Source of the DNA: Limnohabitans sp. 2KL-17
Lineage (GTDB): Bacteria; Pseudomonadota; Gammaproteobacteria; Burkholderiales; Burkholderiaceae_C
Length of the DNA stretch: 64,000 bases
Direction: 5' to 3'
NCBI RefSeq assembly: GCF_003063415.1
Contig: NZ_NESK01000001.1
Span: 62,001-126,000, forward strand
Numbering within the stretch: the first letter of the stretch is position 1; each line of letters opens with the position of its first letter. Shown here piece by piece: positions 18,389-37,331 of this stretch. The notes under the pieces were generated by a model, which saw only the letters and a list, made by a program, of their open reading frames with translations, had not been told where the DNA came from and searched no databases. The position numbers and the translations under genes were made by a program.

Positions 18389-20011
18389 ATGCCTGCCATG
18401 CAGCACTCCAAAATCCTGATCCTTGATTTCGGCTCGCAAGTCACTCAGTTGATCGCACGCCGAGTGCGCGAAGCGCATGTATTTTGCGAAGTACACCCCT
18501 GTGATGTGACCAGTGACTGGGTCCGGGACTACGCCAAGGACGGCAACCTCAAGGGCGTGATCCTGTCGGGTTCGCACGCCAGTGTTTACGAAGTCGATGA
18601 CCGTGCACCGGATGCCGTGTTTGAGCTGGGTATCCCGGTTTTGGGCATTTGCTATGGCATGCAGACCATGGCGGAGCAGTTGGGTGGCAAGGTCGAAGCG
18701 GGCCACACGCGCGAGTTTGGTTATGCCGAAGTTCGCGCCCACGGGCACACCGAACTGCTCAAAGGCATTGAAGACTTCGCTACGCCCGAAGGGCACGGCA
18801 TGCTCAAGGTCTGGATGAGCCACGGCGACAAGGTGACCCAGTTGCCTGAAGGCTTCAAGGTCATGGCCTCTACCCCGGCTTGCCCGATTGCTGGCATGGC
18901 CGATGAAGCCCGCCGCTTTTATGCGGTGCAGTTCCACCCCGAAGTGACGCACACCGTGCAGGGCCAGGCGCTGCTTAACCGCTTCGTGATCGACATTTGT
19001 AAAGCCCGCCAAGACTGGATCATGGGCGATTACATCGAAGAAGCGGTGGCCAAAATTCGCGAACAAGTCGGTGACGAAGAAGTCATTCTCGGCTTGTCGG
19101 GCGGCGTTGATTCGTCGGTGGCTGCGGCCCTGATTCACCGTGCCATTGGCGACAAACTCACCTGTGTGTTTGTGGACCACGGCCTGCTTCGCCTGAATGA
19201 GGGCGACATGGTCATGGACATGTTTGTTGGAAAACTGCATGCACATGTCATTCGAGTGGATGCCAGTGATTTGTTCCTGGGCAAATTGGCGGGGGTGAGC
19301 GAACCCGAAGCCAAACGCAAGATCATTGGTGGTTTGTTTGTCGATGTGTTCAAAGAACAAGCCGCGAAACTCAAAGCCGGAAACGGCGGGCACAAGGGCG
19401 CGACGTTCCTGGCCCAAGGCACGATTTACCCCGACGTGATCGAGTCTGGCGGCGCCAAGAGCAAGAAAGCCGTGACCATCAAGAGCCACCACAATGTGGG
19501 GGGCTTGCCCGAGCAACTGGGCCTGAAACTTCTGGAGCCGTTGCGAGAATTGTTCAAGGACGAAGTGCGCGAACTCGGTGTGGCCCTTGGCTTGCCGCGC
19601 GAGATGGTTTACCGCCACCCATTCCCTGGTCCCGGCCTGGGTGTGCGAATTCTGGGCGAAGTGAAAAAAGAATACGCCGACTTGTTGCGCAGAGCAGATG
19701 CGATCTTCATTGATGAGCTGCGCAACTTCACCGACGACACCGGCAAAAGCTGGTATGACCTGACCAGCCAGGCCTTCGCCGTGTTCCTGCCCGTGAAAAG
19801 CGTGGGTGTGATGGGCGATGGCCGTACCTATGACTTTGTGGTGGCTTTGCGCGCGGTACAAACCAGTGACTTCATGACCGCCGACTGGGCCGAGCTGCCT
19901 TATGCGCTGCTCAAAAAAGTGTCGGGCCGCATCATCAACGAGGTGCGTGGCATCAACCGGGTCACCTACGACGTGAGCTCAAAACCACCCGCGACAATTG
20001 AGTGGGAGTGA
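18389..20011 (+). CDS. guaA: GMP synthase (glutamine-hydrolysing)
   Basis: 540 residues. The class I glutaminase domain comes first: GICYGMQ with the nucleophilic Cys and FHPEVTHT with the catalytic His. The ATP-pyrophosphatase domain follows with the PP-loop [13 protein letters not shown], then the dimerisation domain ([26 protein letters not shown]). An alternative ATG lies 9 bases downstream. It converts XMP to GMP. The last codons and stop lie inside the 16-bp repeat that marks the left end of the genomic island, so the protein is complete but the native terminator is now nearly 12 kb away. Confidence 0.97.
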
Positions 20012-20012
20012 C
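19997..20012 (+). repeat. attL core: left 16-bp direct repeat at the guaA 3' end
   Basis: ATTGAGTGGGAGTGAC, identical to 31755-31770. The flanking bases differ on both sides, so 16 bp is the full exact match. It covers the last guaA codons, the stop codon and one further base. It is read as the integration core generated by the island integrase. Confidence 0.92.
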
Positions 20013-20068: not shown

Positions 20069-20171
20069 AAACTCAAAAAGTCTGTTGATTTTATTGAGAA
20101 AAGACTTTACAGTTACACGTTAAGTAGCACAGCGTTGCGGCTACTCAAAAACGTAGTTACTCTAAAGTCCA

Positions 20172-21458
20172 ATGGCACTCAAAAAAGCTGAATTTAATGA
20201 CGACGAAGTTCCAATATTTGAGGAAGCGTTAGTCTACAAACGTGGCGAATATTGGCAAATGCGTATGTGGCTTGCTAAAGAACACAAGTACGCACGATTT
20301 AGCTTAAAGACACGTAATAGAGCCACAGCCATTGATAAAGCTAAGCTCCACTATCACGAGCTTATGGCGGGACAGCTACAAGGAAAAACGTACTTTTCAA
20401 TCACAACACGTATGGGTGTTGAGATGTACTTAGAACACAGAAAGAAAGACGTAACTAACGGATTTATCGTTAGCGGTAGGTACAACACAATCTCTACACA
20501 CCTTAACCACTGGCTAAAGTTTATTGGTAAAGATGTAAAGCTTAAGGAGCTTGAGCGTACAGATTGTGAAGATTATTTCGCCAGTCGTACAAAAACTAAG
20601 AAGAAAAAAACGATACGCATAAGTCAAACAACAGTTGAAAACGAACAAAGTTCAGTCAACGCAATGATGGCTTGGCTATACAAGCATAAGGAAACATACA
20701 TTGATGGATTTGACTTTAAGAAGTTAAAAGCTGTTGACAAAGGTTCCGAAGAAAACAGACGAAGCACATTTACAGATGACGAAGTAGCACGATGGACTAA
20801 GTCATTAGCTGATTACATTAAGGATGCGGAAAAGGACTTAACAGAGCCAAATAACTTAGTCAAAGCTGTCTGTGGCTATTACTTGGGATTCAGTTTAATC
20901 ACAGGCTTAAGGCGTGGCGAACAGCTTCAGCTTAAGTGGAGTGACATTGAGGATATGGAGCATTCAGAAGCAAGAGGCAATGACTTTGACTTGATTAAAG
21001 TTACTGTACGTGGCGAAACGAGTAAGGTAAGAAAGACACGTAAGTTTGTTGTTAAAGATTCTGTTTACTTAAAAGGCTTAATTGAACTAACAAGAAAAAG
21101 ACACACAGGTAAAATATTAGAGGCTGACTTAGTCAATTTAGTACAAGACGAACTAATGTTTAGCACTAACGGAATGACTGCTGTTACAGCAAGAGCTATT
21201 GGAGTTCACTTTGATAATTTGATTGTTAAAGCTGAAATACCTAATCCAGATAAGCGTGGATTAGTTCCGTACAGTCTGCGTCACTACTTCATTACACAAC
21301 GTGTCAACAGCAATCTTCCTCCAGCTATTGTTGCGGAGATGTGTGGCACAAGCATTACACAAATTGAGAAGACTTATTACCATACAACGGAAGATAAGAT
21401 GGTGAGTAACGCACTTGCTGGCTACTACGTTAAGGATGGAATGCTGATTCCTAAGTAA
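20172..21458 (+). CDS. int: Tyrosine recombinase (island integrase)
   Basis: 428 residues. N-terminal arm-binding part (WQMRMWLAKEHKYARFSLKT), core-binding SAM-like domain around residues 80-185 and a C-terminal catalytic domain. Catalytic candidates: Arg in ITGLRRGEQLQLKW (247/248), box II YSLRHYFIT with Arg370 and Tyr tandem in IEKTYYH (402/403). The usual first His of the HxxR box is Tyr367 here, and the GH position before the nucleophile reads CGTS, as in some island integrases. The gene lies 159 bases inside the left repeat and points inward. It is the best candidate for catalysing integration into guaA. Confidence 0.93.
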   Translation: MALKKAEFNDDEVPIFEEALVYKRGEYWQMRMWLAKEHKYARFSLKTRNRATAIDKAKLHYHELMAGQLQGKTYFSITTRMGVEMYLEHRKKDVTNGFIVSGRYNTISTHLNHWLKFIGKDVKLKELERTDCEDYFASRTKTKKKKTIRISQTTVENEQSSVNAMMAWLYKHKETYIDGFDFKKLKAVDKGSEENRRSTFTDDEVARWTKSLADYIKDAEKDLTEPNNLVKAVCGYYLGFSLITGLRRGEQLQLKWSDIEDMEHSEARGNDFDLIKVTVRGETSKVRKTRKFVVKDSVYLKGLIELTRKRHTGKILEADLVNLVQDELMFSTNGMTAVTARAIGVHFDNLIVKAEIPNPDKRGLVPYSLRHYFITQRVNSNLPPAIVAEMCGTSITQIEKTYYHTTEDKMVSNALAGYYVKDGMLIPK

Positions 21459-22133: not shown

Positions 22134-22174
22134 AACTGTCTCCTATTCTTATATTTAGCGAGAATAGAAGACAA

Positions 22175-22198
22175 GGACTGACACTTGTGTGCCAGCCC
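22175..22198 (-). terminator. Hairpin between the DUF6641-like and Pro-rich genes
   Basis: Read on the minus strand, GGGCTGGCAC and GTGTCAGTCC form a 10-bp stem closed by ACAA, with two G-U wobbles; on the plus strand these become A-C mismatches, so the structure favours the minus-strand RNA. A loose T-rich stretch (TTGTCTTCT) follows. It may be a partial terminator or an RNA processing/stability element. Confidence 0.5.
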
Positions 22199-22206
22199 TT
22201 AATCAA

Positions 22207-22644: not shown

Positions 22645-22699
22645 AAAAGCTCCTTTTGTTAAGTGAACTTTTACTGTAGCTTCAGACTTTATTTAGGAC

Positions 22700-22732
22700 A
22701 ACCTAAAGGAAAATATTTTCTTTCCTTTGGTT
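22700..22732. promoter_or_regulatory. Large inverted repeat upstream of the Rep-like gene
   Basis: Left arm AACC-T-AAAGGAAA (22700-22712) and right arm TTTCCTTTGGTT (22721-22732) pair over 12 bases with one bulged T, around an 8-base AT loop. It lies just upstream of a -10-like TATAAA (22736-22741) for the rightward gene. It could be an operator, a replication-origin type element or an RNA hairpin. Confidence 0.55.
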
Positions 22733-22748
22733 TTGTATAAATAATAGT

Positions 22749-23273: not shown

Positions 23274-23363
23274 TAGCATTACTGCCCACGTTTGGCTCTT
23301 GCTACTTCCAATAAAGCTTGTTAGCTTTAATTGGCGAAGCTTTGCCTAAAATTAAGTAAACAC

Positions 23364-23708
23364 TCAAACAAGCAAGAACTTAGACACAAGGTATTGAGTT
23401 AAAGCAAACAAGATAGCGGTAATGACACAACAGGCTAATAGTGAAAGATAGAAGTTGTATTCATTACGCAAAAAATAAGACATTAAAAGAAACATTGGGA
23501 GAGTAGGTAGGACATACCAGAAAGTTTCATAGGTAATGTCAGCTATCTTCAAAGTGTCTTCACTTTCATAGTAAATCCAACAGATAGCAATAATTGACAC
23601 AATAGGTAGTGCCAAAATGAATGCGGCTAAGCTACTGCTACGTTTGCTAAGTTCTGTAGCAATCACAATAATTAAAGCACTTAAGAGCGTTTTGACAGCG
23701 TACAGCAT
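23364..23708 (-). CDS. DUF3147-like small membrane protein
   Basis: 114 residues, ATG preceded by AAAAGGA. Four hydrophobic segments: about residues 3-20, 27-46, 63-80 and 87-110, with the short acidic loop YYESEDTLKIADIT between the second and third. The arrangement and the TELSKRSSSLAAFILALPIV stretch resemble the DUF3147 family of inner-membrane proteins. Function is unknown. It stands alone between the Rep-like gene and the second recombinase. Confidence 0.7.
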   Translation of the reverse strand: MLYAVKTLLSALIIVIATELSKRSSSLAAFILALPIVSIIAICWIYYESEDTLKIADITYETFWYVLPTLPMFLLMSYFLRNEYNFYLSLLACCVITAILFALTQYLVSKFLLV

Positions 23709-24044
23709 AACTAATCCTTTTAGTCAATTCTATAGCAACGCACTAAAACAAGCTACAAACGCACAAAGCAAGCTGAGCTAAGCTTGGGTAGCTGGTACAG
23801 CTTAAAAAAGCGTACAGGGCTTATACGCAAGTCTGCTTAAAAAAGTCGCAATCAACTAAAAATTCCAATAAATATAAAACCAAAGCTAATTACTAAAAGC
23901 TTTGTTTTTAAGTTAAAGACACGTTAAGTCTTTGAAATCATTGGAGAAAATACATTGACGCACTTAGGTAAAAAATCGGTAGGAATTGAGAAACAAAGAA
24001 AATACACTTTACGCACTGAAAAGCTTACATTAAGGAGAACGCTA
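23709..24044. other. Non-coding gap in the island
   Basis: About 335 bases without a supported gene. It contains two copies of GCTTAAAAAAG (23800-23810 and 23835-23845) and several AGCT-rich words, then an AT-rich stretch leading to the recombinase. An open frame with TTG at 23955 continues into the recombinase but has no ribosome site. No RNA gene is recognisable. Confidence 0.4.
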
Positions 24045-24620
24045 ATGTCTAAACAGGCTAAAGTGCTAACAGCACAAGAAATCCGTAGAGTGCTGGACTA
24101 CGTTGCTACACGTCCCCACGCTGAACGCAATAGGGCAATGTTTTTAACAATGCTGTACGCAATGCTACGTGTAAAAGAATGTGCGGCACTACGCTACGCA
24201 GACGTACTTGACGCAGAGGGTAAGATTAAAACTGAGATTTATCTGAGTGCTGAGCAAACAAAAGGACGTAAGGGCGGTACTGTTTTTGTCAGCGATAAGC
24301 TACGCAAAGAGCTACAGGTTTACGTTAAGGCTGTGCCGTACAAGGAATTAACAGACAAGCTTTTCTACTCACAAAAGCGTCCACAAGAGGGTTGGAACAG
24401 CAATACCTTATGTCAGCATTTTCACCACTTATTCCGTAACTGTGCCATTTCAGGTGGTAGTAGTCACAGTCCAAGACGCACAGGAATAACCAATTTAGCA
24501 GACAAAGGTGTGAGCGTTAGGGTGCTACAAAGCATCGCAAGGCACGCGAATTTATCTACTACGCAATGCTACATAGACGTGAATGATTCTATGAAGAGGA
24601 AGGCGATTGAGTTGGTTTAA
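24045..24620 (+). CDS. Minimal tyrosine recombinase (second recombinase of the island)
   Basis: 191 residues from ATG 24045, which has AAGGAG 7 bases upstream; a TTG 90 bases earlier is not supported. It is only a catalytic domain, about the size of FimB/FimE. Catalytic set visible: Arg in AMLRVKECAALRYADV, HxxR as HSPR in SSHSPRRTGITN, His in IARHANLS and nucleophilic Tyr in TQCYIDV. It lacks the N-terminal core-binding domain of a full integrase. It could be an invertase-like switch, a helper in excision or a remnant; no invertible repeats were identified around it. Confidence 0.85.
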   Translation: MSKQAKVLTAQEIRRVLDYVATRPHAERNRAMFLTMLYAMLRVKECAALRYADVLDAEGKIKTEIYLSAEQTKGRKGGTVFVSDKLRKELQVYVKAVPYKELTDKLFYSQKRPQEGWNSNTLCQHFHHLFRNCAISGGSSHSPRRTGITNLADKGVSVRVLQSIARHANLSTTQCYIDVNDSMKRKAIELV

Positions 24621-25045
24621 TTATTACTTTCGTAAGCTTCTCTAATGTAAGCGGTGTGAAAGTCAATAAACTCCAGTGTTTCATTTCTGAAACTTATTGG
24701 GTTCTTCTTAATTTCTATAAGAATTGACTGTACTTCATCTCTTATTAATTTCCAGTCCCAATCGTTTCCATCTTTAGCAATTTTGTATGCCACTAAAGCA
24801 GACAAGAAGTAGATAGCACCTTCTCTGTATTCATTACGTTTTGAATTCACGAAATTATCAAATTCAATTCTAAGCTTAAGAATTGCATTTGCTTCAACCA
24901 TGGATTTGAATAAATCCATAGAATCCAGTTTTACTTGTTCTTCAAGATTGAGAACAGTTTTACCGAAATTATAATAAGGTAGAGATGTTTTAGCAGAATC
25001 AGTTGTCTGTTTTCCAATCAAAAAAACATCTGTAAAAAAACCCAT
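24617..25045 (-). CDS. Hypothetical protein, partner of the 309-aa gene
   Basis: 142 residues, mostly predicted helical and charged (KLRIEFDNFVNSKRNEYREG, LIRDEVQSILIEIKKNPISF). No signal peptide, membrane segment or recognised motif. It starts 14 bases after the stop of the 309-aa gene on the same strand, so they are likely co-transcribed, and its 3' end overlaps the recombinase stop by 4 bases in convergent orientation. AT content is higher than in the island backbone genes. I do not recognise it. Confidence 0.65.
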   Translation of the reverse strand: MGFFTDVFLIGKQTTDSAKTSLPYYNFGKTVLNLEEQVKLDSMDLFKSMVEANAILKLRIEFDNFVNSKRNEYREGAIYFLSALVAYKIAKDGNDWDWKLIRDEVQSILIEIKKNPISFRNETLEFIDFHTAYIREAYESNN

Positions 25046-25059
25046 AATAAGAATCTTAG

Positions 25060-25989
25060 TTAGTCAAATGCTCTTGGCTTGATGAAGATGTGCTCTTGAA
25101 CGTATGGGCTAAATGAACTAAAGTAATTTTTTCCATCATCATCAGTGAAGTACATCTTCAACGCTAAGTCATAGATACGACGTTGCCACCATCCTCCGTT
25201 ACGGGCTCGTTGCCAAACAACATCATTTACTTTACTTGAAATAGGCATTTCATACTTTGAAAGAACATGCCAATTTCTTTCGTATCCTTCATCCAAGAGT
25301 TCATAATACTTGTCAATTAAGACTGAATTGTAGCTGTTAGAAAGCCTTAGTCCCCTGTGAATTCCAGTTGAGTAGTTGTACACACACAAGTCTGGAAAAC
25401 CAAAGTTAAGTAAACGTGATGCTATTGCTGGTTGATTGCCCGTTGAAACACCATTTACTTTAACGCAAAGTTCTTCACTAAGCTTCTTAACCATTTGCTT
25501 AGCTAATTCAGGATTTGGATTCTTGTAGTTATCTTTATTCCATTTTTTATACAGGACTACCAAATCATTTTTGAGAAAGTTTAGTCCGTTTGGAATATCA
25601 ACTGAGGTTTTATTTGTATTGACTGCGGAATTCAACTGTGCCGCATCCAACAAGGCTCCAAAGTTGTTGTAGGTTATGGTATCTCCACCTTTGTATGTTT
25701 TGACTCCACTAACTCCAGCATTACGAAGTAGATGAGTAGCAAAGATGGTTAGAAAGTTTTCGTCTGATAGATATGTTGAAAAACTTTCCTTAGTAATCAC
25801 ACCATACTCATCAGTAATCTCTATATCAAGATGTTGACTTTTCTTTTTACCTGTTTCATAGGATTTTCCAAGCCAAGCCTCTCTCGCACACAAATCGGCA
25901 ATGTAAATCGCCGCTTCACTAAAATTAGGAACTTTAGGAGTTCGTGCGAACGTAGCTGACGAAGGTTTGCTTTTAGTCTTTGTTGCCAT
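25060..25989 (-). CDS. Unrecognised 309-aa protein, candidate defence/stress gene
   Basis: 309 residues, ATG with GGAGA 6 bases upstream. The N-terminus is Ser/Lys-rich, followed by a soluble mixed alpha/beta protein. Notable blocks: NNFGALLDAAQLNSA, the segment AIASRLLNFGFPDLCVYNYS (about residues 192-211) and WQRARNGGWWQRRIYDLALK near 265. The SRLLNFGFPDLCVYNYS block faintly recalls the helix-hairpin/Asp region of OGG-fold glycosylase-like proteins in defence islands, but I cannot confirm this. It lies between the H-NS-like gene and the 142-aa gene, all on one strand, close to the restriction-modification genes. Confidence 0.65.
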   Translation of the reverse strand: MATKTKSKPSSATFARTPKVPNFSEAAIYIADLCAREAWLGKSYETGKKKSQHLDIEITDEYGVITKESFSTYLSDENFLTIFATHLLRNAGVSGVKTYKGGDTITYNNFGALLDAAQLNSAVNTNKTSVDIPNGLNFLKNDLVVLYKKWNKDNYKNPNPELAKQMVKKLSEELCVKVNGVSTGNQPAIASRLLNFGFPDLCVYNYSTGIHRGLRLSNSYNSVLIDKYYELLDEGYERNWHVLSKYEMPISSKVNDVVWQRARNGGWWQRRIYDLALKMYFTDDDGKNYFSSFSPYVQEHIFIKPRAFD

Positions 25990-26028
25990 TTATTTCTCCA
26001 ACTTTGTCGCACGTAATCCTATAAGTTT

Positions 26029-26250
26029 TTACTTTGTGATTTTCTTAGCCACAGTCTTCTTAGCCGCAGTACCAGTACCACGCTTCTTACGTGTAGCAAG
26101 TACACCCTTAAAGTCACTTGTCTTAAAGCCGTAAAGCTTGATATCTTCCTTCATTTTGGCAAGCACGTTAGCTTTTTCTTTCAGCATTACGCTTTCACGC
26201 TGTGCTGTCAGTTGTGCGATTTGTTCGTTAATTTTGTCGACTTCATTCAT
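26029..26250 (-). CDS. Short H-NS-like nucleoid protein
   Basis: 73 residues from ATG 26250, which has GGAG 7 bases upstream; an upstream start at 26301 is less likely. The N-terminal half is a coiled-coil dimerisation helix (EQIAQLTAQRESVMLKEKAN), followed by IKLYGFKTSDFKGVL, matching the H-NS family of Burkholderiales. The usual C-terminal DNA-binding core (W-x-GRGR type) is absent; instead there is a Lys-rich tail (RKKRGTGTAAKKTVAKKITK). It could bind DNA through the basic tail or act as an antagonist of host H-NS, like truncated H-NS proteins on other islands. It is first in a three-gene minus-strand unit. Confidence 0.7.
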   Translation of the reverse strand: MNEVDKINEQIAQLTAQRESVMLKEKANVLAKMKEDIKLYGFKTSDFKGVLATRKKRGTGTAAKKTVAKKITK

Positions 26251-26273
26251 TTGATAGCTCCATAGGTTAGTCA

Positions 26274-26316
26274 TGTTGACATTTAACTCTACCAACGGCA
26301 TAGTTACATGTCAACA
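26274..26316. promoter_or_regulatory. Inverted repeat in the hns-like/hsdM divergent region
   Basis: TGTTGACAT (26274-26282) and ATGTCAACA (26308-26316) are perfect 9-bp inverted arms separated by 25 bases, inside the 146-base region between two divergent starts. A -10-like TATACT at 26364-26369 could serve hsdM. It is a candidate operator coordinating both directions. Confidence 0.5.
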
Positions 26317-26396
26317 GCTTGTAGAATGACAAGTGTCCATAGTGTAGCTAAAAGCTCACTCTTTATACTGAATTCCATCTAAAAACAAGGCAACGC

Positions 26397-27851
26397 ATGT
26401 TTGAGACAACTTTCCGCAATTTGGACGACACACTACGCAAAGACGCAGGCTGTAGTAGTGAGTTGGACTACATTGAACAGACAAGTTGGGTGTTGTTTTT
26501 GAAGTACTTGGATGACTTTGAAGCAGACAGGGAAGCGTCAGCACAGCTTAATGGTGAACGCTACAAACGCATTCTTAGCAACGAATACGCATGGACAACT
26601 TGGGCTGTACCAAAGACAGCAGATGGCAAGTTGGACTACAACACAGCACTTACAGGAGAAGACTTAAAGGAATTTGTAGACGGTAAGCTGTTTCCATATC
26701 TCAAAAGCTTCAAAGTTAGTGCTGAAAACGCAGACACACTTGAGTACAAGATTGGCGAGATTTTCCACGAGCTTAAGAACAAGCTACAAAGTGGCTACAG
26801 CTTGCGTGAAGTAATCAATAAGGTGGACGAGCTTCGTTTTCGTAGCAACGAAGAAAAACACGAAATGTCCAGCTTGTATGAGGACAAGATTAAGAACATG
26901 GGTAATGCTGGACGTAACGGCGGTGAATATTACACACCACGTCCACTAATTAAGACAATTGTTAAGGTTGTTAATCCCAAAATTGGAAATAAAGTCTATG
27001 ACGGTGCTGTTGGTAGTGCTGGATTTTTGTGCGAAGCATATGAGTACATGCGAACAAGCAAACAGCTAACAGCTAAGGAATTTGAACAGCTACAGCGTAA
27101 GACTTTTTACGGAAAAGAGAAAAAGTCACTTGCTTATATCATTGGCGTTATGAACATGATATTACATGGGATTGAAGCTCCCAATATCATTCACACAAAC
27201 ACCTTAGGTGAAAATAATGCGGACATACAAGAAAAAGATAGAGTAGATGTTGTTCTGGCTAATCCACCATTTGGTGGCAAAGAACGAGCAGAGGTTAGGC
27301 AAAACTTTGCTATTTCAACAGGTGAAACTGCCTATTTATTTTTACAACACTTTATTAAAATTCTTAAGAACAACGGACGTGGCGGTATTGTAATAAAAAG
27401 TACATTTCTTACTGCTAACGATAACGCAAGCATCGCACTTAGAAAGCAACTTCTTTCTGAAACATCATTAGACGCTGTACTAATATTGCCTAAAGGTGTT
27501 TTTACAAAAACACCAGCAACTACTGTAGTTCTGTTCTTTACTAAAGGTTTGTCAACTTCTACTACTTGGTTTTATAAGTTAAAAGCTAAAGAAAGTTTCG
27601 GTATCAATAATCCAATATCTGAGGTTCATTTGAAGGATTTTGTTGATAATTATCCAAATAAAATCAATACTGATAATTCGTGGACAGTCGATATTTCTAA
27701 ATTGAATATTGATACTTTATCTTTACCCATTAGACATCCTGATGCTAATCCTTACGAAGATATATCTCCAAGTTCTGATATAAGAAATTCGCTTGTTGAG
27801 TTATCTAAGGAAACACAAAAACTTATGGAAAAAATTGGTGCCACAGAATGA
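26397..27851 (+). CDS. hsdM: Type I restriction-modification methyltransferase subunit HsdM
   Basis: 484 residues. N-terminal HsdM domain (LDDTLRKDAGCSSELDYIEQ), then GNAGRNGGEYYTPRPLIKTI (169-188), SAM motif I region VYDGAVGSAGFLCEAYEYM (200-218) and the catalytic motif IV NPPF (289-292), typical of N6-adenine methylases. It modifies host DNA together with HsdS. The 3' third is visibly more AT-rich than the 5' part. Its stop overlaps the hsdS start (ATGA at 27848-27851). Confidence 0.95.
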   Translation: MFETTFRNLDDTLRKDAGCSSELDYIEQTSWVLFLKYLDDFEADREASAQLNGERYKRILSNEYAWTTWAVPKTADGKLDYNTALTGEDLKEFVDGKLFPYLKSFKVSAENADTLEYKIGEIFHELKNKLQSGYSLREVINKVDELRFRSNEEKHEMSSLYEDKIKNMGNAGRNGGEYYTPRPLIKTIVKVVNPKIGNKVYDGAVGSAGFLCEAYEYMRTSKQLTAKEFEQLQRKTFYGKEKKSLAYIIGVMNMILHGIEAPNIIHTNTLGENNADIQEKDRVDVVLANPPFGGKERAEVRQNFAISTGETAYLFLQHFIKILKNNGRGGIVIKSTFLTANDNASIALRKQLLSETSLDAVLILPKGVFTKTPATTVVLFFTKGLSTSTTWFYKLKAKESFGINNPISEVHLKDFVDNYPNKINTDNSWTVDISKLNIDTLSLPIRHPDANPYEDISPSSDIRNSLVELSKETQKLMEKIGATE

Positions 27852-28459
27852 AAATGGTAAAACTTAAAGATATCTGTGAATTTCAACCCAAAAAAGCTGA
27901 AGTTAGAGCATTGCTTTCTTCAAGTGAAGTGGTGAGTTTTTTGCCAATGGAGGATTTAGATGCTTACTCAAAGTACGTAAAACCAAAACATCAAAGAACT
28001 CTATCAGAGGTAATTAAGGGATACACTTACTTTCGTGAGAATGATATTCTACTGGCAAAGATAACGCCATGTTTTGAAAACGGTAAGATTGGCATTGCTA
28101 AAGATTTGGTTAATGGTATTGGATTTGGCTCAACTGAGTATATCGTCATTAGAGTTGGTAATGAAGTTCTTTCTGAATGGGTTTATCAATTTTTAACATT
28201 GCCATTTATTCGTGAGCAAGGTAAGGAGCTAATGACAGGTGCTGTTGGGCATAAACGTGTTCCTAAAGAGTTTATAGAGAATTTATCTATTCCATTGCCC
28301 CCAGTTAAAACTCAGATTGAGCTATTAAAAAAACTTGATGAAAAGCTTGATGACATCTCTCACTGTGAGTCAATGCTTGAACAACAAATCTTACTGCTTA
28401 GGGAGTTAGAGACTTCAACTGTTTCTGAAACTTTAGGATTGGCTAATGAACGAAGCTGA
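27848..28459 (+). CDS. hsdS: Half-size type I specificity subunit HsdS
   Basis: 203 residues, about half of a normal HsdS. One target-recognition domain (KMVKLKDICEFQPKKAEVRA; YTYFRENDILLAKITPCFEN; VGHKRVPKEFIENLSIPLPP) is followed by one coiled-coil dimerisation helix (QIELLKKLDEKLDDISHCES). No second recognition domain follows in any frame, because hsdR starts within its last codons. By analogy with other half-subunits, two copies should dimerise and read a palindromic split target. The gene is AT-richer than hsdR. It overlaps both neighbours and is read as functional, not as a frameshifted fragment. Confidence 0.88.
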   Translation: MKMVKLKDICEFQPKKAEVRALLSSSEVVSFLPMEDLDAYSKYVKPKHQRTLSEVIKGYTYFRENDILLAKITPCFENGKIGIAKDLVNGIGFGSTEYIVIRVGNEVLSEWVYQFLTLPFIREQGKELMTGAVGHKRVPKEFIENLSIPLPPVKTQIELLKKLDEKLDDISHCESMLEQQILLLRELETSTVSETLGLANERS

Positions 28460-30767
28460 TACACGAGCAGAACTAATTGATCTCCAGCTTAAGCTTGCTG
28501 GATGGGGTGATATAGCTGAATCACGTGTACAGCGTGAGTACAACATTAACGCTGGTGAGATTAGAGTTGGTGGCATACGTAGTAGCCAAATGAAGGCTGA
28601 CTATGTGCTTATCTATAAAAATAGAAAGCTTGCGGTCATTGAAGCTAAGAGCAATGAACAGGAAGTAGGTGAAGGGGTAGCACAAGCAAAGCTATACGCT
28701 ACCAAGCTTGAACTTGACTACACCTATGCGGCTAACGGTAAAGAAATCTACGAAATCAACTTAGGCACGGGTACAGAAGGACTTGTTAGCGGATTTCCAA
28801 CACCTGATGAGCTTTGGAATAAGGTATTTGGAGATAGCAATGAGTGGCAAGCTAAGTTTAATGCTGTGCCATTTGAAGACGTTAACGGTACCAAGCAAGC
28901 TCGCTACTATCAAGAAATTGCTGTCAACAAAGTTATGGAGGCTGTTGCTAATAATAAGCAAAGAATCTTGCTTACGTTAGCAACGGGTACAGGTAAGACG
29001 TTTGTAGCGTTTCAAGTAGCTTGGAAGTTGTTTCAATCACGTTGGAACTTGCGTAAAGATGGAAAACGTACCCCCCGTATCTTGTTCTTAGCTGATAGAA
29101 ATATTCTTGCTAATCAAGCTTACTTAGACTTTGGAGCATTCAAAGAAGACGCACTTGTTCGTATCAATCCAGCTCAGATTGCTAAACGTGGAGAAGTTCC
29201 CAAGAACGGTAGTGTGTTCTTCACTATCTTCCAAACGTTTATGAGCGGAGCTGAAGGTAAGCCGTACTTTGGAGACTATGAGCCTGACTTCTTTGACTTT
29301 GTAATCATTGACGAGTGTCATAGAGGTGGAGCTAATGACGAAAGTAACTGGCGTGAAATTCTCAACTACTTTAGTCCTGCTGTTCACTTAGGGCTAACAG
29401 CAACGCCTAAACGCATTGATAACGCTGACACATACAAATATTTTGGAGAGCCCGTTTATAAGTACAGCTTGAAAGAGGGTATACAAGACGGCTTCTTAAC
29501 CCCATTCAAAGTTAAGCGTATCCAAACGACTATGGACGAATACGTTTACACACCTGACGACGAAGTATTAGAGGGTGAAGTAGAAGAAGGTTACGTCTAC
29601 ACAGAAAAAGACTTTAACAAAAAAATTGTTATACCTGAGCGTGAGCGTAAGCGTGTACAAGAGATGTTGGCTAACATTAACCAACAAGAAAAGACGCTTG
29701 TATTTTGTGCTAACCAAGCTCATGCCGCTATGGTTAGAGACATTATAAATCAAGAAGTTAAAGTCAAAAATACTGACTATTGTGTACGTGTTACATCTAA
29801 TGATGGTCCTATTGGTGATACGTACTTAAAGCAATTTCAAGACAACGATAAGACTATTCCTACAATCATTACTACAAGTCAAAAACTAACTACTGGTGTT
29901 GACGCACGAAATGTAAGGAACGTTGTTCTTATGCGTCCAGTTAACTCAATGATTGAGTTTAAGCAAATCATTGGACGAGGTACACGTTTATTTGAAGGTA
30001 AACATTACTTCACTATTGTTGACTTTGTGAACGCATATCACTTGTTCAGTGACGCTGAGTGGGATGGAGAACCCATAGAGCCTGAACCTAAAGTTCCTAA
30101 GAAACCTAAAGAACCAGAAGGCGAAGAAGGTAGTGGTACTGGCGAAGGTGAGGGTGGTGACGAAGAGCCAACATTTAAGAAAATTAAGATTAAGCTGAGT
30201 GATGGTAAGGCACGTGAGATACAAAGTATGCGTAGCACTATGTTCTACGTAGACGGAAAACCTATCAGTGCTGAGGAGTTCTTACAACGCCTTTTCAATA
30301 CTCTTAAGCTTCCTGAATTCTTTGGAACTGAAGATACTTTACGTAAGTTATGGGCTAATCCAATTACACGTAGCGAGTTGCTTAAGAAGTTAGAACAGCA
30401 AGGTTGCGGTAAATCTGACTTGCTTAAGCTACAAGAAATGATTGATGCAGACAACTGTGACTTGTTTGATGTGCTTGAGTACATTAGCTACGCACGTAAA
30501 CCAATTACTCGTGCTGAACGTGTAGCTAACGCACAAGGCAACATTTATACGTTTCTTAACGAGAAACAACGTGACTTCATTGGATTTATCTTAAGGAACT
30601 ACGTTCAAGATGGCGTAGACGAATTGGACATTTCTAAGCTCAGTGCTACGCTTACTTCTAAGTATGGAAGCGTCTATGAGGGGCAAAAAGCACTTGGTGA
30701 AGTTGAAGAAATAAAGCGTGTCTTTGTTGATTTTCAACAACACTTGTATAGCGTTAAGTTTGCTTAA
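28446..30767 (+). CDS. hsdR: Type I restriction endonuclease subunit HsdR
   Basis: 773 residues, EcoEI-like size. N-terminal PD-(D/E)xK nuclease with Asp52 (KADYVLIYK) and Glu66-x-Lys68 (VIEAK), then a superfamily 2 translocase: Walker A ATGTGKT (179-185), IIDECHRGG Walker B box, LTATPKR motif III and the IIGRGTRL arginine finger motif. A Gly/Glu-rich linker (GEEGSGTGEGEGGDEEP) precedes a C-terminal EcoEI_R_C-like domain. It cuts unmodified DNA after translocation. It overlaps hsdS by 14 bases and the following ORF in its last codons, so hsdMSR and the next gene look like one transcription unit. Confidence 0.95.
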   Translation: MNEADTRAELIDLQLKLAGWGDIAESRVQREYNINAGEIRVGGIRSSQMKADYVLIYKNRKLAVIEAKSNEQEVGEGVAQAKLYATKLELDYTYAANGKEIYEINLGTGTEGLVSGFPTPDELWNKVFGDSNEWQAKFNAVPFEDVNGTKQARYYQEIAVNKVMEAVANNKQRILLTLATGTGKTFVAFQVAWKLFQSRWNLRKDGKRTPRILFLADRNILANQAYLDFGAFKEDALVRINPAQIAKRGEVPKNGSVFFTIFQTFMSGAEGKPYFGDYEPDFFDFVIIDECHRGGANDESNWREILNYFSPAVHLGLTATPKRIDNADTYKYFGEPVYKYSLKEGIQDGFLTPFKVKRIQTTMDEYVYTPDDEVLEGEVEEGYVYTEKDFNKKIVIPERERKRVQEMLANINQQEKTLVFCANQAHAAMVRDIINQEVKVKNTDYCVRVTSNDGPIGDTYLKQFQDNDKTIPTIITTSQKLTTGVDARNVRNVVLMRPVNSMIEFKQIIGRGTRLFEGKHYFTIVDFVNAYHLFSDAEWDGEPIEPEPKVPKKPKEPEGEEGSGTGEGEGGDEEPTFKKIKIKLSDGKAREIQSMRSTMFYVDGKPISAEEFLQRLFNTLKLPEFFGTEDTLRKLWANPITRSELLKKLEQQGCGKSDLLKLQEMIDADNCDLFDVLEYISYARKPITRAERVANAQGNIYTFLNEKQRDFIGFILRNYVQDGVDELDISKLSATLTSKYGSVYEGQKALGEVEEIKRVFVDFQQHLYSVKFA

Positions 30768-31311
30768 TTTGGCAATTGCTTTGACTAATAAAAAATACAT
30801 TAAAGATACATTTATTAAACATCCAAAAGTTGATTGGGGTGTTGGTAGAGTTGTTTCTGATTCAACAACTGAGTCAGTTACTGCTGTATTTGAAAAAGTT
30901 GGATTAAAGACAATTCATTTGAGTTATGTAGAGCCTTTGATTGTTGATTATGATAGTGAAATAGGAAGAAGTAAATTCAATGATTTAATAAAGCTAAGAA
31001 TTTATTTTAATGACTCTTTTGAGGATATTTACAGAGATATAAAGAGCAAGGCTCCTAATCATTTAATCATTATTGAGAATGGTACTTACTATGAGGTTAT
31101 CAATGATGATGCTGAAAAGTGTAGGGAGATTTATGGATGGAAAGTTTACTCAAGAGCTAATAATCAAGCACTTACAGGATTTCCTATTGGTAGCAAAAAT
31201 GTTTTTTACAATCTTGAAGAAAAGAGGATTTCATATGTCTTAGTTTCCCAAGTAAGTCATAAAACTAAGAATATTGAACGTCAAGTTGACAGAATTTTTA
31301 CTGCTTCATAG
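30718..31311 (+). CDS. DUF3553-like domain joined to a free-standing MutS domain I
   Basis: 197 residues from GTG 30718; TTG at 30769 or 30781, after the hsdR stop, is at least as plausible. The first part, KHPKVDWGVGRVVSDSTTES to VGLKTIHLSYVEPL, resembles the DUF3553 domain. The second part (from about residue 112) follows MutS domain I closely: HLIIIENGTYYEVINDDAEK corresponds to the MutS GDFYELF region, then ALTGFPIG to MAGIPYH, SYVLVSQ to VAICEQ, and IERQVDRIFT to VERKVVRIVT. The mismatch-wedging Phe is Tyr124, and the Glu two positions later is kept (Glu126). No other MutS domains follow. It is transcribed behind hsdR, so a link to restriction or DNA repair is possible; function is unknown. 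Confidence 0.7.
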   Translation: MSLLIFNNTCIALSLLNLAIALTNKKYIKDTFIKHPKVDWGVGRVVSDSTTESVTAVFEKVGLKTIHLSYVEPLIVDYDSEIGRSKFNDLIKLRIYFNDSFEDIYRDIKSKAPNHLIIIENGTYYEVINDDAEKCREIYGWKVYSRANNQALTGFPIGSKNVFYNLEEKRISYVLVSQVSHKTKNIERQVDRIFTAS

Positions 31312-31338
31312 TCTCATTTTTTCCAAAGTAAGTCTCTT

Positions 31339-31572
31339 ATGACATCACCTGTTATCTGTAATGCTGATTATATTAAGGATTTTCTTAGAAGGCTTGAGAC
31401 TAACTTTTCTTTTCCTTTTCGTTGGGTTGACAAGTACACATTAGAAGGTTTGGATGTTTACGAAGCGTGGTTGGATGAACAAAAAAAGGCTGTACAAATG
31501 AAGCGTCTTATCCGTAAAAATTATTTGGAAGTAAATAACTTTACTGAAGAAGACTATGAAGATGACTTTTGA
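31339..31572 (+). CDS. Small hypothetical acidic protein
   Basis: 77 residues, ATG with only a weak ribosome site (AAAGTAAGT). Contains FRWVDKYTLEGLDVYEAWLD and a very acidic end (NNFTEEDYEDDF). It lies 27 bases after the MutS domain I-like gene on the same strand and is the last gene before the right end of the island. No family recognised; coding status is supported by position and length only. Confidence 0.5.
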   Translation: MTSPVICNADYIKDFLRRLETNFSFPFRWVDKYTLEGLDVYEAWLDEQKKAVQMKRLIRKNYLEVNNFTEEDYEDDF

Positions 31573-31754
31573 TTTGGAGTAAGCTTAAATTCCCGCACAG
31601 CGTGTAACAAACTTGCTCCTGAGTCTTTGAAAATATACACTTAAGAAAATCCTTAAGACACTTAAAAATGACACGCAAACTCACACAAAAGTTACACACA
31701 CGCTTTCAGTCAATGCAAGTGCTTGATTTTATTCAGGTTTTTTCTTGTGTTAGT
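31573..31754. other. Right end of the island, non-coding, with arm-like sites
   Basis: 182 AT-rich bases. Contains the palindrome CTTAAG-N6-CTTAAG, then ACACAAAAGTTACAC (31683-31697), nearly identical to 20054-20068, and CAAGTGCTTGATT (31716-31728), a full match to the IHF consensus. The segment 31717-31745 aligns with the left end at 20024-20049. It is interpreted as the attR arm region. Confidence 0.6.
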
Positions 31755-31770
31755 ATTGAGTGGGAGTGAC
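31755..31770 (+). repeat. attR core: right 16-bp direct repeat
   Basis: Second copy of ATTGAGTGGGAGTGAC, identical to 19997-20012. It is followed immediately by the terminator that must have belonged to guaA before the insertion. Confidence 0.92.
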
Positions 31771-31773
31771 CAG

Positions 31774-31799
31774 AAAGGCACCTTCAGGTGCCTTTTTTT
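31774..31799 (+). terminator. Displaced guaA terminator
   Basis: AAAGGCACC (31774-31782) and GGTGCCTTT (31787-31795) form a 9-bp stem with a TTCA loop, followed by T residues. It lies 3 bases beyond the right repeat; precise excision would put it directly behind the guaA stop. Confidence 0.88.
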
Positions 31800-31816
31800 G
31801 TTACATTCTGCTCGAT

Positions 31817-33834
<2,018 letters not shown>

Positions 33835-33849
33835 AACAGAACACCCGCC

Positions 33850-34761
33850 ATGGCCCATATTTATATTTTTTCTCCCTCCAGCGCGGTGCGCGACAAGGCG
33901 GCTTTTCGCCGTGGGCTCAAACGCTTGAAGTCGCAGGGTCATGAAGTTGAAGTGGATGAAGCCGCATTGACCAGTCACATGCGTTTTGCGGGCGATGACG
34001 CTGTGCGCATTGCAGCCATTGGCCGTGCGGCTGCCAGTGGCGCTGATGTGGCGCTGATCTCTCGCGGGGGCTACGGGCTCACCCGCATCCTGCCGGACTT
34101 GCCCTACAAAGCCATTGGCAAAGCCATCGATGGCGGCTTGCAGTTTGTCGGCCTGAGTGATTTCACAGCGTTTAATCAAGCGGTGTTCACCAAGACGGGC
34201 CGCATCACATGGCAAGGCCCGGCTTTGGGCGAGGATTTCGGTTCGGCTCAAGAGCCTGACGACATCATGCAAGCCTGTTTTGACGACCTGTTGCTTGAGC
34301 AAGGGGAGGGCACCGGCTGGCAATTGCCCAAGACTGAAACCGAGCGCCGCGTGCTGCTCAAGGATGCCCCGCTTTGGGGGGGCAACCTGTCGGTGCTGGT
34401 CTCCTTGCTGGGGACGCCTTATTTTCCACAAATCAAGGGCGGTGTGCTGTTCCTCGAGGATGTGGGCGAGCACCCCTACCGCGTCGAGCGCATGTTGACG
34501 CAACTGTTGCATGCCGGCGTGCTGGCTCGGCAAAAAGCCGTGTTGATGGGGCAATTCACCCATTACAAACTGGTGCCTGCCCACGACAAGGGCTTCAAGC
34601 TGGCCACGGTGGTGGATTGGCTGCGCAGCCAGATCAAGGCGCCGGTCTTGACGGGTCTGCCTTTTGGCCATGTCGAGACCAAGGTGCTGCTGCCTGTCGG
34701 CGCCAAGGTGGATCTTGTCACCGAGGGGCGTGACGCCTTGATGGTTTGGGGCCATATTTAA
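33850..34761 (+). CDS. ldcA: LD-carboxypeptidase (peptidase S66)
   Basis: 303 residues. S66 family landmarks: ISRGGYGLTRILPDL, then FVGLSDFTAFN with the nucleophilic Ser, LWGGNLSVL, the Glu-containing GGVLFLEDVGEHPYRVERML and GLPFGHVETKVLLPVGAKVD with the catalytic His. It removes the terminal D-alanine from cytoplasmic tetrapeptides during peptidoglycan recycling. No signal peptide is visible, which fits a cytoplasmic enzyme. It starts 15 bases after the tadA fusion. Confidence 0.93.
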   Translation: MAHIYIFSPSSAVRDKAAFRRGLKRLKSQGHEVEVDEAALTSHMRFAGDDAVRIAAIGRAAASGADVALISRGGYGLTRILPDLPYKAIGKAIDGGLQFVGLSDFTAFNQAVFTKTGRITWQGPALGEDFGSAQEPDDIMQACFDDLLLEQGEGTGWQLPKTETERRVLLKDAPLWGGNLSVLVSLLGTPYFPQIKGGVLFLEDVGEHPYRVERMLTQLLHAGVLARQKAVLMGQFTHYKLVPAHDKGFKLATVVDWLRSQIKAPVLTGLPFGHVETKVLLPVGAKVDLVTEGRDALMVWGHI

Positions 34762-34850
34762 AAACTGAGACTTGCCGCGGGTTTTAGGGCACATGGGGCC
34801 TGAAGGCGGCTGTTGCTGTTGAAACAAAAAAACAAACAAGGGAGACGATC

Positions 34851-37331
34851 ATGAAGTGGATCGCACGAGTTCTGCTGGCAGGCCTGACTGTTTTATTGCT
34901 TGCAGGAGGTGTGGTCAGCGTGCACCTTTTGCGCGGACTGCCCCAGCTGGATGGCGAGGTGCAACTCAAGGGCTTGTCGGCCTCGGTGCAAATCACCCGC
35001 GATGCTTCTGATGTGACCCATATCAGCGCCAGCACGGCCCCGGATGCCTGGCGAGCCTTGGGTTTCGTGCACGCCCAAGAGCGGGGCTGGCAAATGGAAT
35101 TCAACCGACGGGTGATGCGCGGCGAACTGTCCGAGATTCTGGGCGCCGCCACGCTGGACACGGACAAACTGATGCGCACCCTGGGCATTATTGGCATGGC
35201 ACAGCAGCAGCTCAAAGGCTTGTCGCCTGCCGCCCAAGCCGCTTTGCAGGCCTACAGTGAGGGCGTTCAGACCGCTTGGCAAAGTGGCTTGGTAAGGCCA
35301 TCGCCAGAGTTCACGTTGCTCTCGGCCCAAGCCGGCGGCTTGACCGGCCAAGCCTGGACACCTGAAGACAGCGTGGGCTGGGCTTTGATGATGGCCTTGG
35401 ACTTGGGGGGCAACTGGGGTCAGGAATTTGCACGTTTGTCAGCGTCCCAGGTGCTGAGCAGCGAACAGCTGTGGCAACTGCTGCCGGCTTATCCGGGTGA
35501 AAAACCCGCCACATCGGTTGATTTGCCAGCCCTCTACGCCAGCCTGGGTGTCTATTCGCCCCCTGCGGCAAAGGCCTCGGGGTTGCCCACAAACACATCC
35601 CCTTTGGCGCAATGGTCGGCAGACACTGTGCGCGACATGGGCGTTCTGGATGGCAAGGGCAGCAACAACTGGGTGGTGCCCGGTAGCCACACGGTATCGG
35701 GCAAGCCCTTGTTGGCCAATGACCCTCATTTGGCGCTGAGCTCTCCTGCGATTTGGTACTTTGCCCACCTGAAAGCCCCTGCTGGCGAATTACCCGGTGG
35801 GCAAAAGCACCCGGCACTGGACGTGATCGGTGCCACCTTGCCAGGCTTGCCTTTTGTGGTGTTGGGTCGCACATCGGGCGTGGCCTGGGGCTTCACCAAC
35901 ACAGGTCCCGATGTGCAGGATTTGTACCTGGAACAACTCGATACAGCCCAGCCTGGTCAATACCGCACGCCCGAGGGTTGGCGTGCTTTCACACAACGCA
36001 GCGAAACGATTCGCGTGAAGGGGCAAGCGGATGTCGCAATCAAGGTGCGCAGCACCCGCCACGGTCCGGTCATCAGTGATGTGCAGCCGCAGTACAAGGG
36101 GCTGATTGACACGAACCGTTACGCCGTCAGCCTGCGCTGGTCGGCGCTGACGCCGGACAACAAAACCATTGAGGCAGGCATGCAAGCCAATTGGGCCCAA
36201 AGCGTGCCGCAATTGCAGCAAGCCTTTGCCGACCACCATGCACCCATGCAAAGCGTGGTGATGGCCGACACTTCGGGTGAAGTGGCGTATCGCGCAGTGG
36301 GCAAAGTGCCCACACGTGCGCCCCAAAACGACATTCGCGGCGTTGCCCCGTCACCGGGTTGGTTGGCCCAATACGATTGGACAGGCTGGTTGCCCTACGC
36401 GCAAAACCCCGCAGTCGACGCTGCCCAGATCGAGAAAAAGGGCTGGCACGCGACCGCCAACCAGAACATCTTGCCGCCAGGCTATCCGCATTTTGTGGGA
36501 GGTGACTGGACCACGCCCGAGCGTTTTCAGCGCATCGAGCATTTGCTGGCAACTACGCCCAAGCACAGCCGTGAAAGCATGCAGGCCATCCAGAACGATG
36601 TCATGTCTTTGGGCGCCAAAGCCCTGCAGTCCAGGCTGGGCAAGGTGCAGTCACTGCACCCCTTGGCCCCGGTCGCATTGAAGTTGGTAGCCGAATTTGA
36701 CGGCCAGATGCGAACCGACAGCGCAGCGGCATTGCTTATCAATGTCTGGGCCGATGAGCTGACGCGGGGCTTGTTGGTGCCACATCTGGGGGCTGAGCGC
36801 TTTCAGGGCTTGTATGGCAAGCGCCATTTCAGGGCTGCCGTGGAGGGCATTCTTGACCGGTCCGATGCATTTTGGTGTGGCCCTGGTGCGTGCCCTGCCC
36901 AGACCTCAGCGGCACTTGACAGGGCGCTTGATCGCATCTCTGCCAGTATGGGCAGCGATGCGAAGAAGTGGCGTTGGGGCGCTTGGCATCCGGCCATCAG
37001 CAGCCACAAGCCATTCGGCAAAGTGCCTTACTTGAATGCGCTGTTCGACGTGCGCGTTGAAAGTGCCGGTGACTTGTTCACCGTCAACGTGGGCCAGTAC
37101 TGGGCCAACGAAAAGAAGACGCCTTTTGCCAATCGCCATGCGGCATCGATGCGCGCCGTCTACGACTTGGGGCAACCGGATCAGTCGGTGTTCATTTACC
37201 AGACAGGCCAGTCGGGCCATGTGCTGGATCCCCGAAGCCGCAACATGGCCAACCGCTGGGCTGAAGGCGGCTATCTGGACTTGCAACAAACGCCCCAAAC
37301 GGTGCTGCACCGCATGAGTCTGCTGCCTTGA
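34851..37331 (+). CDS. Penicillin acylase family N-terminal nucleophile hydrolase
   Basis: 826 residues with a signal peptide or N-terminal anchor (ARVLLAGLTVLLLAGGVVSV) for export. The alpha part carries ITRDASDVTHISASTAPDAW and GFVHAQERGWQMEFNRRVMR. The expected autocatalytic site precedes the beta chain at GKGSNNWVVPGSHTVSGKPL, Ser being the nucleophile, followed by LLANDPHLAL. GFTNTGPDVQDLYLEQL also matches. Family members cleave penicillins, acyl-homoserine lactones or other amides; the substrate cannot be chosen here. A GGGAGACGATC leader precedes the ATG. The stop overlaps the start of the MFS gene (TTGA). Confidence 0.9.
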   Translation: MKWIARVLLAGLTVLLLAGGVVSVHLLRGLPQLDGEVQLKGLSASVQITRDASDVTHISASTAPDAWRALGFVHAQERGWQMEFNRRVMRGELSEILGAATLDTDKLMRTLGIIGMAQQQLKGLSPAAQAALQAYSEGVQTAWQSGLVRPSPEFTLLSAQAGGLTGQAWTPEDSVGWALMMALDLGGNWGQEFARLSASQVLSSEQLWQLLPAYPGEKPATSVDLPALYASLGVYSPPAAKASGLPTNTSPLAQWSADTVRDMGVLDGKGSNNWVVPGSHTVSGKPLLANDPHLALSSPAIWYFAHLKAPAGELPGGQKHPALDVIGATLPGLPFVVLGRTSGVAWGFTNTGPDVQDLYLEQLDTAQPGQYRTPEGWRAFTQRSETIRVKGQADVAIKVRSTRHGPVISDVQPQYKGLIDTNRYAVSLRWSALTPDNKTIEAGMQANWAQSVPQLQQAFADHHAPMQSVVMADTSGEVAYRAVGKVPTRAPQNDIRGVAPSPGWLAQYDWTGWLPYAQNPAVDAAQIEKKGWHATANQNILPPGYPHFVGGDWTTPERFQRIEHLLATTPKHSRESMQAIQNDVMSLGAKALQSRLGKVQSLHPLAPVALKLVAEFDGQMRTDSAAALLINVWADELTRGLLVPHLGAERFQGLYGKRHFRAAVEGILDRSDAFWCGPGACPAQTSAALDRALDRISASMGSDAKKWRWGAWHPAISSHKPFGKVPYLNALFDVRVESAGDLFTVNVGQYWANEKKTPFANRHAASMRAVYDLGQPDQSVFIYQTGQSGHVLDPRSRNMANRWAEGGYLDLQQTPQTVLHRMSLLP

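Follow-up and report, generated by a model that had tools for sequence, protein, structure and literature searches.

A protein joining a UvrD/PcrA-type Tudor domain to a MutS domain I behind type I restriction genes on a Limnohabitans integrative island

What is a MutS domain I, with none of the rest of MutS, doing behind a set of restriction genes? The question is raised by a 64,000-nucleotide stretch (the window) of contig NZ_NESK01000001.1 of Limnohabitans sp. 2KL-17, in which an open reading frame (ORF) of 197 amino acids, 30718-31311 on the plus strand, lies behind hsdM, a short hsdS and hsdR on a mobile island. Coordinates are window positions unless they carry a prefix. A reading of the letters alone (the sequence-only reading) had claimed that this frame joins a free-standing MutS domain I to a DUF3553-like domain. 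We found that both domains score above their Pfam cut-offs, as the only Pfam matches to do so in this protein, and that hhalign, a structure model and Foldseek confirm the MutS part. The gene and its two domains are placed as follows (E, expectation value).

30769..31311, plus strand, Tudor-MutS_I fusion gene, the coding part of ORF 30718-31311 from its probable start (Pfam, model, fold search and comparison with the related locus L036)
30793..30933, plus strand, Tudor-like domain (DUF3553) of the type found at the C-terminus of UvrD/PcrA, spanning roughly ORF residues 26-72 (Pfam DUF3553, E 4.6e-5; profile matches to UvrD)
31018..31302, plus strand, complete MutS domain I, residues 101-195 (Pfam MutS_I, E 7.7e-8; hhalign; model and fold search)

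The ORF has GTG as its first codon, and its first 16 or so codons overlap the end of hsdR (TAA stop at 30765-30767). In-frame TTG codons lie around that stop, at 30760, 30769 and 30781, and ATG is absent among the codons checked between 30718 and 30799. The fusion gene probably starts at TTG 30769 or 30781, giving a product of about 180 residues, and its translational coupling to hsdR is plausible from the layout of the sequence; the interval 30300-31800 shows no terminator-like site. Only two residues of the ORF lie beyond the stretch matched by MutS_I, and Pfam matches nothing in the gene after it, which bears out the earlier observation that domain I is followed by neither clamp nor lever nor ATPase domain.

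The C-terminal part matches PF01624 (MutS_I) at E 7.7e-8 and 33 bits (cut-off 20.6), with residues 101-195 covering profile positions 3-105 of 113, and the copy in L036 scores 33.1 bits, also above the cut-off. NCBIfam MutS models match the same stretch at 2.8e-5 and 0.0018, far below their whole-protein cut-offs. Profile-profile comparison, proposed earlier as a check on the assignment, gave hhalign probabilities of 97.6 (E 4.7e-12) and 96.7 (E 3.1e-10) against two MutS_I alignments, and 0.1 against a Tudor alignment used as a control. The four blocks that had been singled out as counterparts of the GDFYELF region, MAGIPYH, VAICEQ and VERKVVRIVT of MutS do align to domain I. A model of the MutS_I part alone (bases 31003-31308) was predicted from an alignment of the L036 copy with 47 other MutS_I rows (12 MutS-sized or cut frames and 35 other MutS_I, all from viral contigs); it reached a predicted local distance difference test (pLDDT) score of 91.0 and a predicted template modelling (pTM) score of 0.84. 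Foldseek of this model against the PDB returned 65 matches at E <= 0.001, the best at 1.2e-6; the 50 matches listed were all MutS or MSH, with TMq (a template modelling score) of 0.65-0.81 among those listed. The fusion thus has the complete MutS domain I fold that structure prediction was expected to show, although the model is not independent of the choice of alignment, because the predictor's alignment includes MutS rows. Two results speak against the assignment: an earlier full-length model, built on a shallower alignment of 20 rows, had a pLDDT of only 33-42 in the MutS_I domain, and a single-sequence phmmer search of the protein against the PDB found neither MutS nor UvrD. The idea that a helix is missing from the MutS_I part was dropped, as gaps in the deeper alignment lie mainly in loops and near the end.

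It had also been noted that the wedge Phe is replaced by Tyr and the Glu kept, and this holds: Tyr124 and Glu126 (ORF numbering) stand at Phe36 and Glu38 of E. coli MutS, a residue correspondence read by eye from the alignment. Both the window copy and the L036 copy have Tyr-Tyr-Glu here, so the Phe-X-Glu mismatch motif is absent. A review reports that changing Phe36 to Ala disrupts specific binding by MutS, and also that the motif is missing from MSH2 and MSH3 (PMC3848065); it is therefore not defining for the fold family. The fusion shares the domain I fold and Glu38 with the MutS repair ATPase but differs from it in having Tyr for Phe36 and in lacking the connector, core, clamp and ATPase domains. 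As to where its MutS_I part came from, the fusion forms a long branch for which the tree gave no placement; it scores 33.8 bits with some phage MutS_I, compared with 26.4 bits with the best MutS. MutS_I also strongly matches a 939-amino-acid frame of the host, which is presumably the host's MutS.

The N-terminal part matches PF12073 (DUF3553) at E 4.6e-5 and 23.4 bits (cut-off 20.3) over residues 32-72. A Tudor profile of seven rows, two of them the fusion copies, matches the UvrD structures 7egt (7e-6) and 4c2t (2.5e-4) and, more weakly, 7egs, 6yi2 and 5dma (E 0.09-0.37). DUF3553 has been described as Tudor-like and nearest to the RNA polymerase-interaction domain of PcrA/UvrD (PMC6511836). 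In PcrA, residues H681, W684, K712 and L714 are reported as required for RNA polymerase binding (PMC5397179); His35, Trp40, Lys64 and Ile66 of the fusion stand at their putative places, again by eye. Although the profile matches to 7egt and 4c2t tie the domain to the C-terminal Tudor of UvrD/PcrA, the fusion's copy is N-terminal and attached to neither a helicase nor a polymerase, and by eye it has two extra residues in its first loop compared with the UvrD rows. In the full-length model, residues 11-60 (the Tudor part) reach a pLDDT of 71-83; the fold search with that model gave no match at E <= 0.001, with Tudor-, PWWP- and Agenet-type domains among the many listed. A genome search with DUF3553 found matches in 5 of 369 genomes, in other frames only, and was insensitive, because it did not recover the window's own copy. 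Three further loci (L027:799-1689, L028:787-1695 and L029:748-2199) combine a DUF3553-type Tudor domain with a C-terminal region of about 220 amino acids that looks common to them by eye; L029 has, in front of the Tudor domain, what we take to be an HD-type hydrolase.

How far is this combination of domains shared? A genome-contig scan with the two-row alignment (102 stretches) returned two loci: L036, a full-length relative in a Burkholderiales metagenome bin, and L037, which holds the Tudor part only. Single-protein scans of viral contigs and genome contigs gave no close relatives, and tblastn in phages and plasmids gave weak matches only (E >= 0.1). In overlapping sets of 299 genomes of the family, 399 of the order and 398 of the phylum, the sole full-length match among those listed was the protein itself; the order-level search was run at E <= 0.1, and the rows listed were mostly MutS-sized frames. 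A 233-amino-acid frame of genome G385 was rejected as a lone MutS_I, since there the start of a MutS runs into a tail that we take to be HU-like. The frame at L022:2262-2954, which begins as MutS domain I and has an end that we likewise take to be HU-like, is possibly an assembly chimera.

The L036 protein differs from the window fusion at 15 of 180 residues (92% identity). Directly upstream lies what is left of hsdR, a tail that carries an in-frame stop and matches window 30675-30770 at 73 of 96 bases; unrelated genes precede it. Downstream of the L036 fusion gene lies a homologue of the small gene that follows the fusion gene in the window. The order of fusion gene and small gene is thus kept in spite of the reduction of hsdR to a tail. 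In 60-base steps, DNA identity between the two loci is 90-98% over 30735-31334, 67% in the preceding hsdR tail and 45-77% in the small gene, a profile that points to an exchange of the fusion gene between related elements or to much stronger constraint on it. Nonsynonymous and synonymous divergence (dN/dS) were 0.036/0.141 for the whole gene, 0.022/0.160 for the MutS_I part and 0.063/0.154 for the Tudor part, and the codon-position test gave p = 0.0036 for the MutS_I part. The MutS_I part is therefore under protein-level constraint. These figures bear on one explanation of the locus, that it is a functionless fragment of a MutS gene. Very few relatives and a long branch are what such a fragment might show; the frame that is open at both loci, the low dN/dS between their MutS_I parts, the second domain preceding a complete domain I, and the neighbour gene common to both loci speak the other way, and we regard a mere fragment as highly improbable.

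Domain I of MutS has been reported outside MutS before. The account in PMC5512222 presents the polyvalent proteins of phages and conjugative elements of Bacteroidetes and Firmicutes, about 80% of them with an ArdC-N domain, as the sole instance. The fusion resembles them in carrying MutS domain I outside MutS in a mobile-element protein, but it is a two-domain protein on a chromosomal island, with a UvrD-type Tudor domain and, among Pfam matches, only MutS_I and DUF3553 and no catalytic or ArdC-N domain. Among the weak tblastn matches of the fusion (E 0.1-0.5) is a large protein of a Prevotella plasmid, with a helicase-related annotation.

We take this plasmid protein for a polyvalent protein. 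A scan of viral contigs for MutS_I of the polyvalent type gave 80 loci, some of them near-identical, and in 22 of the 80 the stop-to-stop frame is at most 147 amino acids long. Another scan gave L153:2971-3312, with MutS_I only (Pfam 2.8e-14) in 114 amino acids from a chosen ATG within a frame of 182. These short frames share with the fusion the possession of MutS_I plus little else, but they differ in that GDFYE is present in 72 of the 80 loci. Neither of the two viral loci scanned with Pfam (L151 and L153) has a DUF3553 match. By comparison, among the best 80 of 425 loci in a scan for classical MutS, no closed frame was shorter than 855 amino acids (8 run off the contig piece). The viral MutS_I frames apparently belong to a family that extends beyond the polyvalent proteins of PMC5512222, and the description of the window's domain as "lone" stands only in part: no other MutS domain follows it, but short MutS_I frames occur in viral contigs as well. 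The window and L036 are the only loci in which we saw MutS_I joined to a UvrD-type Tudor domain, the search for other domains having covered a minority of the 80 viral frames. No Tudor-MutS_I fusion is described in the titles and abstract openings searched, a coverage without most subscription journals, and the fusion appears to be new. Among the other viral loci, L233, L228, L232 and L182 show short frames with mainly MutS_I, together with larger MutS_I frames.

The gene that accompanies the fusion gene at both loci encodes a small acidic protein.

31339..31572, plus strand, small acidic protein, 77 amino acids, ending EEDYEDDF (the two copies show a codon-position signature, p = 0.0005)

Its L036 homologue has 81 amino acids and ends DDDKDDIPF, so that both copies have an acidic tail and a terminal Phe; dN between them is 0.31 and dS 2.4 (saturated). 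Neither copy has a Pfam match, and the window copy is also without a PHROG or PADLOC match and has a single, chance-level NCBIfam match (E 0.11). In a set of 4819 distinct frames of at least 60 amino acids, 188 end in Phe, and only 2 of these also have at least four acidic residues among the preceding eight, namely the two copies of the small protein; the set covers the window, the loci below L068 (minus the duplicates L001, L038 and L236) and L155-L234, and most of its frames need not be genes. Outside this set, the host's single-stranded DNA-binding protein (SSB) ends MDDDIPF, and the tip of E. coli SSB, MDFDDDIPF, is reported to bind many repair proteins (PMC7913777). The tail of the small protein can be said only to resemble an SSB-type tip, because the window copy lacks the Ile-Pro. 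The window copy matched phages at E 0.01 over 35 residues (Dulem virus 33, in a gene annotated as a reductase) and at E 2, and the L036 copy matched plasmids at E 3. Searched against 150 genomes of the order, the L036 copy found the window copy at 4.2e-24 and, at E 0.0027, a 685-amino-acid frame of genome G398 that we take to resemble acetyl-CoA synthetase. We judged all matches other than the window/L036 pair to be due to chance.

Such a pair of proteins, adjoining a restriction system on a mobile island, might act as a sensor against phages or plasmids, in which MutS domain I would bind distorted incoming DNA and the SSB-like tail of the partner would recruit nucleases, as the SSB tip recruits repair proteins (PMC7913777). 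Set against the fact that PADLOC matches neither the fusion protein nor the small-gene product, that Pfam finds no catalytic domain and that just two loci are known, we consider this rather unlikely.

The gene order might also reflect a closer tie to restriction. The fusion gene follows these three genes on the island.

26397..27851, plus strand, hsdM, type I methyltransferase (Pfam N6_Mtase, 3.1e-57; PADLOC MTase_I, 1.8e-141)
27848..28459, plus strand, hsdS, 203 amino acids, with one Methylase_S match (Pfam Methylase_S, 4.9e-11; PADLOC Specificity_I, 4.2e-55)
28446..30767, plus strand, hsdR (Pfam ResIII, 7.9e-37; EcoEI_R_C, 2.7e-24)

The 203 residues of this HsdS are about half the usual length. 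The product of the fusion gene could be an accessory or regulator of the type I system that responds to distorted DNA or to stalled HsdR complexes by adjusting or relieving restriction; its position directly behind hsdR, its coupled-looking start and the presence of an hsdR tail immediately upstream in 2 of 2 fusion loci (window and L036) would all fit. But L036 keeps the fusion gene although hsdR has been lost there: its bin has no hsdR match at E <= 1e-10, in a search without a positive control and in a bin of unknown completeness. To this is added a survey of other hsdR loci, as had been proposed. An hsdR match at E <= 1e-100 is present in 35 of 260 genomes of the order, the host included. 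We examined 30 such loci by tblastn over both strands and found the fusion or small gene within flanks of up to 1.5 kb only at the window's own locus and at 0 of the 29 others; three other flank matches were at chance level (E 0.36-0.62). Some of these loci reach a contig end or match part of hsdR, so that less of their downstream side was covered. Such restriction systems thus do not as a rule include the fusion, which is absent beside the 29 other hsdR loci. Thus, the proposed link to type I restriction holds as far as the upstream hsdR tail at both loci goes, and the expected recurrence beside hsdR failed to appear; a role as a restriction accessory is in our view possible but doubtful. The host has a second hsdR (G000:C2:79047-81380), 60% identical and with one in-frame stop.

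We tentatively favor a different explanation, which could easily prove wrong: that the island encodes an adaptor or decoy for host repair factors that would act on distorted DNA, with the small gene supplying a partner. The fusion protein would be an adaptor without an ATPase, whose MutS domain I may touch kinked, mispaired, looped or partly single-stranded DNA. Its Tudor domain may dock on a host protein with a helicase interaction motif, such as RNA polymerase beta, UvrB or similar; the PcrA domain is reported to bind this motif in RpoB, and UvrB also carries it (PMC8318588). The small protein could engage SSB-interacting repair proteins through its SSB-tip-like tail. Where DNA is distorted, the two proteins would then sequester the host's repair factors or divert them locally, possibly when the element enters, recombines or replicates. 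The sequence-only reading had suggested recognition of distorted or nicked DNA, or interference with host mismatch repair; recognition of distorted DNA and such interference are hypotheses. In favor of such an adaptor we count the retained Glu, the replacement of Phe by the aromatic Tyr, the UvrD matches of the Tudor domain, the constraint on the MutS_I part, the acidic tails, the persistence of the fusion and small genes in L036 and the published occurrence of MutS_I in mobile-element proteins (PMC5512222). A stronger version, in which a repair-decoy module would mimic MutS domain I, the UvrD Tudor tail and the SSB tip all at once and damp mismatch repair or heteroduplex rejection, strikes us as unlikely; if true, it would favor the island's own establishment or recombination.

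Several observations weigh against the adaptor or decoy. A domain I without a clamp offers little surface for contact with DNA. The fusion keeps only 9 of the 21 MutS_I columns that are conserved in at least 85% of the other rows, and the positions of Asp35 and Arg32 hold Thr and Glu. In the L036 copy, DUF3553 scores 15.2 bits, below the cut-off of 20.3, and the Tudor His is replaced by Asn. Deletion of the C-terminal domain of PcrA/UvrD is reported to leave mismatch repair apparently unaffected (PMC5397179). In the window, the small protein ends in DDF and lacks SSB's Ile-Pro; its likeness to SSB is confined to the tip. Finally, constraint was measured on a single sequence pair (window and L036), and the codon-position test on the whole fusion gene gave p = 0.073.

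The substituted columns could instead mean that the MutS_I part is a protein scaffold that makes no contact with DNA, in a regulator bound to RNA polymerase. The Tudor domain is of the right type for this, that of UvrD/PcrA, and 12 of the 21 conserved MutS_I columns are replaced. However, dN/dS is lower in the MutS_I part (0.14) than in the Tudor part (0.41), and Glu38 and an aromatic wedge residue are retained, which makes such a regulator quite improbable in our estimation.

Whichever of these applies, the small two-domain version offers a direct test case for the recognition of distorted DNA by domain I without the rest of MutS. It also allows one to ask whether the mismatch repair of the host is subject to interference by mobile elements, which would affect both the mutation rate and the barrier that keeps diverged DNA from recombining. 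The short viral MutS_I frames suggest that such proteins are commoner than the account in PMC5512222 reports.

The island that carries these genes has the following further features.

19997..20012, no strand assigned, left direct repeat ATTGAGTGGGAGTGAC (attL) at the 3' end of guaA (exact 16-bp repeat, two plus-strand copies in the window)
20172..21458, plus strand, tyrosine integrase of the island (Pfam Phage_integrase, 9.7e-8; PHROG integrase, 7.5e-26)
22207-22644, minus strand, island protein matching PHROG_31551, function not known (E 5.7e-22)
22749-23273, plus strand, island gene with an HLHF motif (weak PHROG replication initiation match, E 0.027)
23955-24620, plus strand, second, short tyrosine recombinase, 221 amino acids (PHROG integrase, 1.4e-35)
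26029-26301, minus strand, small protein weakly like the MvaT/MvaU silencers, divergent from hsdM (NCBIfam, 0.006; PHROG_10171, 1.7e-4)
31755..31770, no strand assigned, right direct repeat ATTGAGTGGGAGTGAC (attR) (exact 16-bp repeat; empty site in congeners G1406 and G1409)

The gene that ends at the left repeat is one that we take to be guaA, and the HLHF motif is, we assume, like that of an HUH replication or relaxase protein. In G1406 and G1409 the end of guaA adjoins the right flank, with overlaps of 16 and 15 bases, respectively (27332-27347 and 6760-6774). These are 2 of the 10 other congeners searched; in the remainder the two sides are spaced or unresolved or the right flank has no match. 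G+C is 31-44% over 20000-31499, compared with 57-65% over 32000-35999, the right flank being the one profiled. With an integrase, direct repeats and an empty site, this is an 11.8-kb integrative element, and these same features place the fusion gene near its right end.

Three minor observations concern the surroundings of the two loci. At L036:6286-8649, the beginning of a tctC-type gene continues in frame as a MORN-AAA protein. The same locus has a repeat of about 80 bp, 87% alike (10739-10818 and 11763-11843), that looks like the 3' end of a tRNA, although ARAGORN finds no tRNA there. To the right of the island in the window, a single ORF (32455-33834, plus strand) joins two parts, which we take to be a TadA-like deaminase and an alpha/beta hydrolase.

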